64,000 nt of DNA from a virus. The position numbers and the translations under genes are program-made. The stretch covers positions 102,853-166,852 of the IMG/VR virus record IMGVR_UViG_3300020057_000496. The stretch is one strand, 5' to 3'. Positions 30,053 through 43,963 of the stretch are shown here, one piece after another (position 1 is the stretch's first letter; each line of letters begins with the position of its first letter). The notes below the pieces were generated by a model. The model searched no databases and was not told the origin of the DNA. It saw nothing but the letters and a program-made list of their open reading frames with translations.

Positions 30053-32251
30053 GTGAAGTTACACTGGGCTTTGCCCTTTCGATTCATGGGCGGTAACGCC
30101 GCCGGTTATACCGGTAGCTCTATCAATCTGCGAAATGCGCTTACGGCCGAAGGTGTCGAGTTTACCGAAAAGGCGCGAGTCGTGTTGCATTACTGCCACC
30201 CGGCCGATTGTTTCCCGATCTCGGGGAAAACCAATTTATTATGGTCCATGTACGAAGGTGAACCCTTGCCGCCGATCTTTGCGGCGAAGTTCGCGCGAGT
30301 CCATGCCGTGATCGCGCCGTCGCAGTTCGTGTACGACCTGTTCAAGCCGCATGTCGGCAAGAAGCCGTTGGTGGTCAGTCACATTGGCTTTGACGATTCG
30401 TTGTATACATACAAGGAGCGTAGCTGGGAGCCAGGTAAGGGGCAATTCGAGTTCCTGTGGGTTGGGGCACCTAATCCGAGAAAAGGTTGGCCGGCAACTT
30501 TCTCGTCCTGGGCTCATCTCTTTCAGGATAAGGAATGGGCTCATTTGACCATGAAGACCTCGTCCGAGACTGGCAAAGGGACCTTGCGACATTTTGGTAA
30601 TGCAACGTTCGATTCGCGCCTGTATACACGTGAGGAAATGCGCGACCTGTATCACCAGGCGAATGCTTTCGTCTTCCCGACGGCAGGTGAAGGATTTGGT
30701 CTTTGTGTAGGTTTTTCTACTGAAATTATCACAAGTAACGGCACTGTGGATATTTGCGATATTCGATCAGGGGATACGGTACTTAGTTCAGATGGAAAAT
30801 ATCATAAGGTTAATAAGACCGTATGTAAATACGGGAAAACAATTTCAATAAAAATTACAGGTCAACTACCTGTCGAGGCAACTGAATGTCATCCGTTTTA
30901 TGCCGTTAAGCGGAGGGCTAAAAGGTTTAACGCTAGTGCTAACCCAAGCTCCGTAAATATTGAGTCACTTGCCGGATGGATCAAAGCAAGCGAATTGAGT
31001 AAGGGTGATTTCGTTGCATATCCTAGATATTCCATCAATGAGCCACTTATTAAATCAATTAATATTAAAGATTACCTAGATAACAATAAGCTATATAAGG
31101 AATGTGATAGTTTTATTAGGTGCAAATCGTCACCGTCATCTACCGCCTGGTTTGTTGATCAATATGATAAGATTGGTGAAAGTCGCAAAATTCGACGCCC
31201 AAAGCGCACGTTGGTTAGTAAAAACATAGAAGTTGATGATGATCTTTTATATCTTTTTGGCTGGTACATAGCGGAGGGTTCGTCTAATGGTGGTGTTGGC
31301 ATAGCATATACTATGTGCGGCGATGAATTACGTGATGCAAAATATCTATGTTATTTATTGAATAAGAAATTCAATATACTTCCGGCGATCGAAACTGCTG
31401 GCGGTAATTGTATTAAGGTTAAATCATATAGTAGAATTGTATCACGTTGTTTTAGTCAATGGTTCGGTAGTGGCGCTAAGGACAAGAAGATTCCAGAATT
31501 CCTTATGAATTCTCCACGATCAATGGGTCCCCTACTAAGGGGCCTATTTTTGGGGGACGGCTGTATGACTAAGAATCAAGAATGGTCACTATCTAGTGCA
31601 TCGCGAACATTAGTCTATCAAGTAAGGCTCGTTCTTTCTGCCGTTGGTATTCATTCATCTATGTCGTATAACGAACCCAGAAATAGTTCTTACTTGCGTA
31701 TTTATACGTTACGCATAGCTGGTCAATTTATTGATTCATTTTGTGTATTCACGAAACTTCAAAATCCGCGCGTTTCTAAGCGCACGCCGGCGAATACCGC
31801 TATTGTTAGTAATAAATATATCTTTACTGCAATTAGAAAAATAGACAGTAATACAAAAGAGCAGATAGTCTATGATCTTTCGGTAGAGAAGGAGCATTCG
31901 TTTGTTGGCAACGGAGTGTTATTACACAACACGGCGGCCGAGGCCCTGGCAACTGGTTGTCCGGTGGTGACTACGCGTTACGGCGGACAAATGGAATTTT
32001 TAGACAACGGCGTCGCCTGGACGATTGACTCCGTGTTCGAGAATATCCCGATGACTAACGGGATTGGCTATCTCCGGTCGGCCTGCGCGGACGTGCCGGA
32101 CCTTGGCCGAAAGATGATCGAGATCATCCAGGACTACCCAAAAGCCCTGGAACGCGCCAAACGTGGCTCGGTACGGATGCACGCCAAATTCACTATGCGT
32201 GCCGCAGCGCGTCAACTCCTGAGAAATATACAGCTATTAGGATATGCGTAA
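30053..32251 (+). CDS. GT-B glycosyltransferase interrupted by an intein
   Basis: 732 codons from GTG 30053: N-extein 217 aa, intein 409 aa, C-extein 106 aa. The spliced enzyme of about 323 aa is a GT4-like transferase: N-terminal NLLWSMYEGEPLPPIF, donor domain FLWVGAPNPRKGW, and the motif EGFGL joined to TAAEALATGCPVV, which is the conserved E-x7-E nucleotide-sugar site. Its paralog at 52402 lacks an intein and has LGEGYSLSAIEAQ there. The intein is AT-rich against GC-rich exteins. Likely role: sugar transfer to a virion protein or glycan. First gene of the glycosylation cassette. Confidence 0.9.
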   Translation: MKLHWALPFRFMGGNAAGYTGSSINLRNALTAEGVEFTEKARVVLHYCHPADCFPISGKTNLLWSMYEGEPLPPIFAAKFARVHAVIAPSQFVYDLFKPHVGKKPLVVSHIGFDDSLYTYKERSWEPGKGQFEFLWVGAPNPRKGWPATFSSWAHLFQDKEWAHLTMKTSSETGKGTLRHFGNATFDSRLYTREEMRDLYHQANAFVFPTAGEGFGLCVGFSTEIITSNGTVDICDIRSGDTVLSSDGKYHKVNKTVCKYGKTISIKITGQLPVEATECHPFYAVKRRAKRFNASANPSSVNIESLAGWIKASELSKGDFVAYPRYSINEPLIKSINIKDYLDNNKLYKECDSFIRCKSSPSSTAWFVDQYDKIGESRKIRRPKRTLVSKNIEVDDDLLYLFGWYIAEGSSNGGVGIAYTMCGDELRDAKYLCYLLNKKFNILPAIETAGGNCIKVKSYSRIVSRCFSQWFGSGAKDKKIPEFLMNSPRSMGPLLRGLFLGDGCMTKNQEWSLSSASRTLVYQVRLVLSAVGIHSSMSYNEPRNSSYLRIYTLRIAGQFIDSFCVFTKLQNPRVSKRTPANTAIVSNKYIFTAIRKIDSNTKEQIVYDLSVEKEHSFVGNGVLLHNTAAEALATGCPVVTTRYGGQMEFLDNGVAWTIDSVFENIPMTNGIGYLRSACADVPDLGRKMIEIIQDYPKALERAKRGSVRMHAKFTMRAAARQLLRNIQLLGYA
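30704..31930 (+). mobile_element. Full-length intein with LAGLIDADG endonuclease
   Basis: 409 aa. Starts with Cys (block A CVGFSTEIITSNGTVDICDI), block B VEATECHPFYAV with Thr and His. Two LAGLIDADG-type helices are LFGWYIAEGS and LRGLFLGDGCM, and the C-terminal blocks are QIVYDLSVEKEHSF and GNGVLLHN, with Thr as the +1 residue. All splicing residues are present, so it should be active. The base composition is clearly richer in A+T than its host gene. Inserted exactly in the glycosyltransferase active-site motif. Confidence 0.95.
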
Positions 32252-32320
32252 CCCCGCATAAAACCACACGATTCTCCTCGACCGTTCGAGGAATCCGGGT
32301 TACATTACGCAGCGAGCGCA

Positions 32321-32342
32321 GGCCCCGTCCTTCAGGGCGGGG
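32321..32342 (+). repeat. CCCCGTCCT hairpin element
   Basis: GCCCCGTCCT-TC-AGGGCGGGG forms a stem of about 9 bp with one wobble. Same family as the 14271 and 21368 elements. It too lies shortly upstream of an XRE-type gene. The surrounding 32252-32422 spacer has no convincing gene. Confidence 0.7.
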
Positions 32343-42478: not shown

Positions 42479-43227
42479 TAGCCGATTGCTTCTGTTTCTT
42501 TAACGAGCTAGAGCTTCTTAAAGCTCGTTGTGAAATCCTAAAGGACGTAGTTGATGTTTTCGTCTTAGTTGAGTCTAGATTTACTTTTACTGGGGAAAGG
42601 AAGATTCTTTTTTTCGAAGAAAATAAACATCTATTCGATCAGTACAATATTCATCACGTGATTTGTGATGATATGCCCAATAATGGAAATGCTTGGGACA
42701 ATGAGTATCATCAGCGAAGTAAGATCTGCCCGGTCGAAATTGCGAATGACTGGCTTATCATTGGCGATCTTGATGAAATTCCAGATCCGGGTGCGACCAT
42801 AAATGCGCACAGGAACGGGGAGCGTGATAAGTTTTACGTATTTCGAGGCCCAACATGTTATTATAAAATGACCTGGATGTCTGTCATTTGGGATGGATCT
42901 AAGATTGTGCACCGAAGCTATATGAATAAGGTGTCAGGGGACCCCGCTCAGTTCAGGAACATATGGCAGGGCGAGGACCGTATTACGATTGATGGCGGTT
43001 GGCACTTTAGTTATCTACTAACTGGTGAAATTGACGAATCGATTCGATATAAAATGAACAGCTTCTCTCATACTGAATTCAGAAATGAAATAGACAGAAC
43101 GATTAGTGATGCAAAAAAAATGATTGACCCAAGGCGGCGGGGGTTGTCTCGTATGTCGATCTCGGAATTGCCTGAGTATATTCAGAAAAACCAGGACCAT
43201 TACAGACAAATTGGCTGGATTGATTGA
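42475..43227 (+). CDS. Glycosyltransferase family 17-like
   Basis: 250 aa from GTG 42475. DCFCFFNELELLKARCEILK, VDVFVLVESRFTFTGERKIL, DEYHQRSK-like NEYHQRSKICP and IIGDLDEIPDP are characteristic of GT17 (beta-1,4-N-acetylglucosaminyl-transferase-like) enzymes, common in phage and giant-virus sugar loci. Acceptor unknown. Confidence 0.88.
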   Translation: MIADCFCFFNELELLKARCEILKDVVDVFVLVESRFTFTGERKILFFEENKHLFDQYNIHHVICDDMPNNGNAWDNEYHQRSKICPVEIANDWLIIGDLDEIPDPGATINAHRNGERDKFYVFRGPTCYYKMTWMSVIWDGSKIVHRSYMNKVSGDPAQFRNIWQGEDRITIDGGWHFSYLLTGEIDESIRYKMNSFSHTEFRNEIDRTISDAKKMIDPRRRGLSRMSISELPEYIQKNQDHYRQIGWID

Positions 43228-43963
43228 TATCGTACTGATAACAACTAATTGGTCTCGTGAACGACTTGATATTCTAAGTCGAACCGAGTCGTACTTGGTT
43301 GGCAGTTTCGCCAAGAAAATCATGTCGGTAGATATGTTACCCAATGGAGCATTGGGGCGCGAGGATTTTTCTATATTCGCAAAAAATGGATGGGAGGTAT
43401 ATTTCGGTGAGGGCGGTGGTCGCAGTGGAATGGTGAATAATCAATTGCGAGGCATTAAGCATGCTACGGCTGAGTGGCTATTGTTATGCGAGGACGATGC
43501 GCCGCTTTTATTGTTTCCGGATATCTCAACACTAGAAGAAGGTGAGATAAACTGGTTGTGTTATAATTGCCACTTGAATGACGAGGACTTGCTCAATGAT
43601 TACGTTCAGGATCGTGGTTCGTATCTTGTGTCGAACGGTGGCGTCTTTATGATAAAACCCGTTAACTTGTGCGATAAGTGGCTCCTTACGTTTCCGGCAT
43701 CTATTACGAAGAAAAGCGTTATTCTTGCCCTGCACGAAGTGGCGGCTCGGATTGCGATCGGAACTTCAATTGAGGAAGGACTGAGCGTGGCATGGCGGGC
43801 GGGGAGCTTTGGTAACGTAGCCATATACCTGAATAGGGAAGTCCTTGATAACTTACATCGTATCACGACCAGTGACCTACATAAATTCGCGAACATGCGC
43901 TATTGGAACAATGATGAGTCCACGAGACATGGTTCTGTCGATAAGTCGTGCATGTGGTATTAG
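43220..43963 (+). CDS. Putative glycosyltransferase, end of cassette
   Basis: 247 aa from TTG 43220, overlapping the previous stop. IDIVLITTNWSRERLDILSR, then EWLLLCEDDAPLLLFPDI (E-D-D-A metal site) and GGVFMIKP indicate a GT-A fold, more diverged than the others. Its stop codon lies inside the 66-nt direct repeat that flanks the methyltransferase. Confidence 0.65.
   Translation: MIDIVLITTNWSRERLDILSRTESYLVGSFAKKIMSVDMLPNGALGREDFSIFAKNGWEVYFGEGGGRSGMVNNQLRGIKHATAEWLLLCEDDAPLLLFPDISTLEEGEINWLCYNCHLNDEDLLNDYVQDRGSYLVSNGGVFMIKPVNLCDKWLLTFPASITKKSVILALHEVAARIAIGTSIEEGLSVAWRAGSFGNVAIYLNREVLDNLHRITTSDLHKFANMRYWNNDESTRHGSVDKSCMWY

Follow-up and report, generated by a model that had tools for sequence, protein, structure and literature searches.

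The closest described counterparts of the locus analysed here occur in Cluster J mycobacteriophages (Omega, LittleE, Thibault), where the interval between capsid and connector genes holds eight to ten genes, at most five of them for glycosyltransferases (GTs), and varies strongly from phage to phage (PMC3706429). Our locus is a cassette of 16 main open reading frames (ORFs), packed tightly on the plus strand at 30053-43963 of a 64,000-nt window. The window comes from an uncultured tailed phage, is the whole stretch of DNA analysed and corresponds to bases 102,853-166,852 of the 166,852-base IMG/VR record IMGVR_UViG_3300020057_000496; coordinates are window positions unless prefixed by a stretch label (e.g. 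L003, L005), and ORFs are named by their first base. As in Cluster J, several GTs and S-adenosylmethionine (SAM) methyltransferases lie between the major capsid gene, here upstream, and a head-tail connector gene, here the adaptor gene downstream. With about 12 GTs in its 16 genes, the cassette has an architecture of this known kind, enlarged to roughly twice the number of GTs and joined by a radical SAM enzyme, which has not been described at the Cluster J position. An earlier, sequence-only reading of this DNA had credited mycobacteriophages with far fewer genes, which is right only in degree, given the sets already known from the same position. We favour, with modest confidence, virion glycosylation from host sugar nucleotides as the best-supported function of the cassette, and we describe an intein that interrupts the catalytic motif of its first GT.

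Gene content, borders and relatives

Nine cassette ORFs match glycosyltransferase families of the GT2, GT4, GT17 and GT32-like kinds at or above the curated Pfam cut-offs, three more (32763, 37378 and 39264) are probable GTs and one has no assignment; a radical SAM/SPASM enzyme and a pair of methyltransferases, one called on weak evidence, complete the cassette (Table 1). This bears out the sequence-only tally of about a dozen GTs of several families, one radical SAM enzyme and two methyltransferases. The first gene carries GT4 domains, but 409 of its 732 amino acids (aa) belong to the intein, which that reading had missed. Nor does the number of enzymes predict one long, specific oligosaccharide, as had been proposed, since the cassette contains two pairs of paralogues (35835 and 36593, 39% identity; 38101 and 38682, 42% identity), a truncated-looking ORF and the ORF without assignment. 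The latter was called from 43124, its start probably lies near 43208, and it had no match in Pfam, PHROG or NCBIfam. AlphaFold runs without an alignment gave pLDDT values of 32 for this protein and 31 for the GT4/intein protein, and the models were not used.

Table 1. Features of the cassette and its surroundings (window coordinates)
Position	Strand	Feature	Evidence
28475-29752	+	HK97-type major capsid protein; upstream border, candidate glycan acceptor	Pfam Phage_capsid 8e-34; phrog_10
29797-29840	+	Terminator-like hairpin 3' of capsid gene, ~20-bp stem then T-rich stretch	RNA fold of 29760-29850, consensus only
30053-32251	+	GT4 glycosyltransferase split by intein	Pfam Glyco_trans_1_4, GT4-conflict, Intein_splicing, LAGLIDADG_3
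30704-31930	+	409-aa intein with LAGLIDADG endonuclease, inside EX7E	GEGFGL / C...HN / TAAE
32390-32635	+	XRE-type helix-turn-helix (HTH) ORF between genes 1 and 2, possible regulator	Pfam HTH_3 2e-7
32681-32724	+	Terminator-like hairpin 3' of HTH ORF	RNA fold, consensus only
32726-32755	+	Promoter-like TTGACT-18-TAATAT	Consensus match only, ahead of 32763
32763-33500	+	Probable GT2 (GT-A), DDD motif	hhalign 90% to GT2 profile; weak NCBIfam PglI match
33606-34721	+	Radical SAM/SPASM enzyme	Pfam; CxxxCxxC and conserved C-terminal Cys
34721-35326	+	Probable class I SAM-dependent methyltransferase	Weak NCBIfam MftM, E 3e-4; LDIGCG motif
35305-35835	+	SAM-dependent methyltransferase	Pfam Methyltransf_24, 6.6e-10
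35835-36596	+	GT2/GT7C-like glycosyltransferase	Pfam Glyco_transf_7C
36593-37336	+	GT2/GT7C-like glycosyltransferase	Pfam Glycos_transf_2
37378-38016	+	Probable GT2/GT7C-like, possibly truncated	hhalign 73%, residues 88-129 only (C-terminal half of GT2/GT7C)
38101-38685	+	GT2 glycosyltransferase	Pfam; phrog_14775; BLAST 31-35%, hhalign 99.9% to Che8 gp108/LittleE gp15
38682-39254	+	GT2 glycosyltransferase	Pfam; matches 60 phage records
39264-39965	+	Probable GT2-like	PF00535 E 0.0017; short BLAST matches to actinophage GTs
39902-40846	+	GT4, EX7E present; true start probably further downstream	Pfam Glyco_trans_1_4 1e-9
40788-41702	+	GT32-like glycosyltransferase, DXD	Pfam Gly_transf_sug 4e-9
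41705-42478	+	GT2 glycosyltransferase	Pfam 4e-8; chondroitin synthase by phmmer
42475-43227	+	GT17 glycosyltransferase	Pfam Glyco_transf_17 1e-20
43208-43963	+	ORF with EDDA motif, possible GT-A	hhalign to Che8 gp110 non-significant, E 0.03
50144-51067	+	Head-tail adaptor; downstream structural border	phrog_442, 4e-22
52402-53382	+	Second GT4, intein-free paralogue of first cassette gene	phrog_2170; Pfam GT4-conflict

The cassette is embedded among virion genes. Terminase, portal, protease and major capsid genes span 22856-29752; further matches are to a minor tail protein (53492-54586) and, close to where the record begins, to a tape-measure protein. The stretch from the cassette to the adaptor holds a split DNA methylase together with two proteins (45608-46597 and 46597-49425) whose N-termini resemble signal peptides; the second of them has, judged by eye, a pectate-lyase-like tailspike start. 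Another record of this phage (IMGVR 3300020213_000276) contains the whole cassette with 99.8% identity, so the block is not an accident of assembly. Among 50,697 phage records, megablast found no match to the cassette, and searches for relatives through the capsid, portal, GT4 exteins, intein and 43208 ORF retrieved the same phage alone; the GT17 gene additionally retrieved distant single genes. Across the 166,852-base record, GT2 and GT4 models match solely in the cassette and at 52402-53382.

Kinship with described systems is concentrated in a few genes. LittleE gp15, directly 3' of the capsid gene in that phage, is homologous to 38101 and 38682 (32-35% identity, E 7e-31 and 1e-36), whereas the other cassette genes are unshared or weakly shared at the Cluster J position. 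Kinase-like and metalloprotease-like genes are present there and were not found here; conversely, no GT there carries an intein. Matches to 38682 in the annotated phage collection come almost entirely from actinobacteriophages (59 of 60 records), and several family members likewise lie close to structural genes: gp93 of Forza and gp81 of GodonK, both Gordonia phages, near the head-tail adaptor, and gp25 of Yvonnetastic shortly upstream of terminase. The product of 39264 has relatives at 35% identity in phage GT clusters.

The second point of comparison is Che8. Its virion reportedly carries an experimentally shown glycan for which gp110 is essential (PMC12363180, citing Freeman 2023; see also PMC11256854). 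Che8 gp108-gp110 form a block of three GTs near the right end of the genome. Both 38101 and 38682 are homologues of gp108, and the profile of 35835, 36593 and 41705 resembles gp109 (hhalign 94%). The Che8 genes stand away from the structural genes, whereas the larger block described here lies between capsid and adaptor, and its glycan is predicted from the genes.

Proposed function of the cassette and candidate acceptors

A virion acceptor is favoured because of the capsid/connector position, the GT homologues in Che8 and LittleE, the apparent solubility of the enzymes, the failure to find lipid-carrier or sugar-nucleotide genes and the intactness of the cassette in the second record. Simple hydropathy revealed no clear membrane segment in the cassette proteins; the borderline signal at the N-terminus of 38101 may stem from a start codon placed too early. 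Matches to PF01370 (NDP-sugar epimerase) are absent from the record and present in seven of ten comparison records, PF00483 (sugar nucleotidyltransferase) is absent from the record and from all ten, and neither PF02397 (polyprenyl-phosphate sugar transferase) nor PF00303 (thymidylate-synthase-type hydroxymethylase) occurs in a record that may be incomplete and whose phage may borrow host enzymes for the missing steps; ThyX was the only thymidylate synthase found. A complete route through lipid-linked polysaccharide, or a classical one through hydroxymethylated bases, is unsupported because these four matches are missing. Likewise, by hydropathy of the cassette proteins and a search of the record for PF02397, we recognised no membrane transferase, flippase or Gtr protein of the kind that would mark a lipid-linked O-antigen or exopolysaccharide pathway or a GtrABC-type system.

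If the virion is indeed the target, the cassette enzymes would act as soluble proteins in the host cytoplasm late in infection, drawing on host sugar nucleotides to equip a virion protein with one or more glycans. By position, the nearest candidate acceptors would be the upstream capsid protein and the pair with signal-peptide-like N-termini at 45608-49425. Capping or decoration of the sugars may fall to the two methyltransferases, and the radical SAM/SPASM enzyme may alter either a sugar or the acceptor itself. The intein-bearing GT4 would be made as a precursor, active only once its intein is spliced out.

The cassette had also been placed inside the structural operon, and here the position stands, from capsid to adaptor, but strong terminator-like hairpins follow both the capsid gene and the HTH ORF. 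We read 32763-43963 as probably its own unit within the virion gene block, not necessarily co-transcribed with the capsid gene, because of these hairpins, the promoter-like sequence ahead of 32763 and the spacing of the genes, most of which overlap or almost touch from 33606 onwards; hairpins and promoter are consensus features, and the region shows no excess of promoter-like matches over shuffled sequence (17, where 21 are expected).

Several points weigh against a virion acceptor. No cassette gene significantly matches Che8 gp110 (hhalign E value of 43208, 0.03). GTs of the 38682 family sit away from structural genes in Fryberger (gp121) and in Che8, so position is no strict guide to function, and the hairpins may part transcription of the cassette from that of the capsid gene. 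The glycan itself is a prediction, and its acceptor a candidate. A further point concerns the radical SAM enzyme, whose nearest relatives (41-57% identical) lie in the GT clusters of other phages. Several of these phages are T4-like; in them the gene is flanked by gp32-like and uvsX-like genes and accompanied by sugar-nucleotide enzymes (epimerases), and such clusters are usually taken to modify the host surface. Relatives also occur in a few bacterial contigs, one of them mobile-element-like with an adjoining GT2 gene.

These clusters bear on the explanation that we rank second and consider unlikely, namely that the cassette remodels a host surface polysaccharide (lipopolysaccharide, capsule or similar), blocking superinfection or altering adsorption. 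Large phage GT clusters have been so interpreted, including the 15-gene cluster of cyanophage P-SSM2 (PMC7824862), which is similar in scale; the closest relatives of the radical SAM gene and of several cassette GTs come from T4-like phage clusters of this type, and the T4-like records found have that radical SAM family and some GTs in common with the cassette. The downstream protein 46597-49425, with its pectate-lyase-like start, could moreover act on a polysaccharide. However, P-SSM2-type clusters include genes for sugar-nucleotide biosynthesis and occupy other places in the genome, whereas the record analysed here has no detectable NDP-sugar epimerase, polyprenyl-phosphate sugar transferase or membrane GT and its cassette stands among virion genes rather than replication genes.

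Somewhat less probable still is a hot spot that has gathered foreign GT genes (a moron island), few of them used and none committed to a single defined glycan. The relatives of the cassette genes are a mosaic spread over different phages, the Cluster J interval is itself strongly variable, and the truncated-looking ORF, the ORF without assignment, the intein, the HTH ORF, and the frameshifted methylase with its repeats at the downstream end would all suit such an island. On the other side, all ORFs but one look full-length, most overlap or almost touch, and they are preserved at near identity in the second record. Glycosylation of phage DNA bases to evade restriction is very improbable: hydroxymethylated bases are a known substrate of phage GTs and DNA methylases are also present in the record, but it has no thymidylate-synthase-type hydroxymethylase, and Pfam and PHROGs linked none of the cassette GTs to a family of DNA glucosyltransferases.

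Should the glycan prove to be on the virion, the cassette would be among the largest phage gene sets for glycosylation of the phage's own proteins known to us, and it would raise the question of what benefit an environmental phage draws from a sugar coat. For mycobacteriophages, the explanation offered for virion glycosylation is shielding from antibodies. Since mycobacteriophages share the position, the joining of capsid genes with glycosylation looks like a recurrent architecture.

Inteins within the EX7E motif of phage GT4 enzymes

The gene families of the cassette, their position, the intein and its site are established at the level of sequence. In the first gene, the junction reads ...FPTAGEGFGL / C...HN / TAAEALATG..., so that the intein breaks the catalytic EX7E motif; because it sits there, the GT4 would be active only after splicing. 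The insert has Cys1, TxxH (block B), two LAGLIDADG motifs, a terminal His-Asn and a +1 Thr, and is homologous to PI-PkoII by phmmer, features that place it among class 1 LAGLIDADG inteins. Excision in silico leaves exteins totalling 323 aa as a continuous host protein, which aligns across the junction with the intein-free paralogue 52402-53382 at 29% identity. The intein differs from other class 1 inteins in that its host protein is a glycosyltransferase, whereas known hosts are described as mainly enzymes of DNA metabolism and other essential enzymes (PMC7765530). Two adjacent genes elsewhere in the same record, AAA ATPase-like and DUF2201/VWA-like (L003:8524-12779), each carry an intein as well, so the phage has at least three.

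A DNA-pattern scan of viral contigs for GEGFG(L/F)C returned 39 loci; being conditioned on that site, it shows recurrence, not preference over other sites. Besides the window phage, at least eight distinct viral contigs carry full inteins at the identical bond (L081, L082, L087, L090, L091, L093, L103 and L104, the intein of L086 being that of L082), and a further candidate (L095) is interrupted by the contig end. Others among the loci have a plain Cys at the site in an uninterrupted GT4. An apparent N-extein overlap with GT4 in LR756511 was rejected, as its neighbourhood points to ribonucleotide reductase. Among the exteins, three GT4 lineages can be told apart, which are only 15-25% alike: that of the window, that of L081, L082, L103 and L104, and that of L087, L090, L091 and L093. 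The inteins form three groups matching these lineages, 23-32% alike between groups, and the +1 residue follows suit (Thr, Ser and Cys, respectively). In L082 the intein is a 152-aa mini-intein without an endonuclease. Support in the intein tree is 71/79, which does not settle whether one shared invasion reached all three lineages.

We consider it likely that the EX7E motif of phage GT4 enzymes is a recurrent, undescribed intein site at which splicing is needed to activate each enzyme; that splicing serves as a timing or stress switch on phage glycosylation is less certain. The literature searched yielded no earlier report of this site or of an intein in a glycosyltransferase, an absence there that is not proof. 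GTs would thus be an apparently new, already recurrent class of intein host protein, and they offer a testable enzyme whose active-site motif needs protein splicing for its completion.

Repeats and other genes of the record

The N6/N4 DNA methylase downstream of the cassette (44086-44866) is apparently broken in two near 44228 by a frameshift (..DPPYG*, continuing in a different frame as GTTACKWD..), which is probably real rather than a sequencing error because it is identical in the second record (L010). Imperfect direct repeats at 43950-44036 and 44883-44970, with a TTGAGTCG/CGACTCAA-type hairpin, flank it, and hairpins like TTGAGTCG/CGACTCAA also lie 3' of the capsid gene (29774) and inside the protease gene (27384). 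A 120-nt stretch of the terminase gene (23741-23860) has a 97% copy, in the same frame, where the protease gene encodes its C-terminal part (27954-28073), and 42-nt inverted repeats (14268-14309 and 21368-21409) stand 7 kb apart. L003 further encodes a sulfatase with a signal-peptide-like N-terminus (L003:4081-5328) and an NAPRTase/NAMPT-like gene (L003:15680-17143) that suggests NAD salvage by the phage. In L005 (record positions ~67,000-80,500), a near-identical MLYHIRTDY-like sequence opens many short ORFs of the minus strand; these may reflect a repeated DNA element and not proteins.

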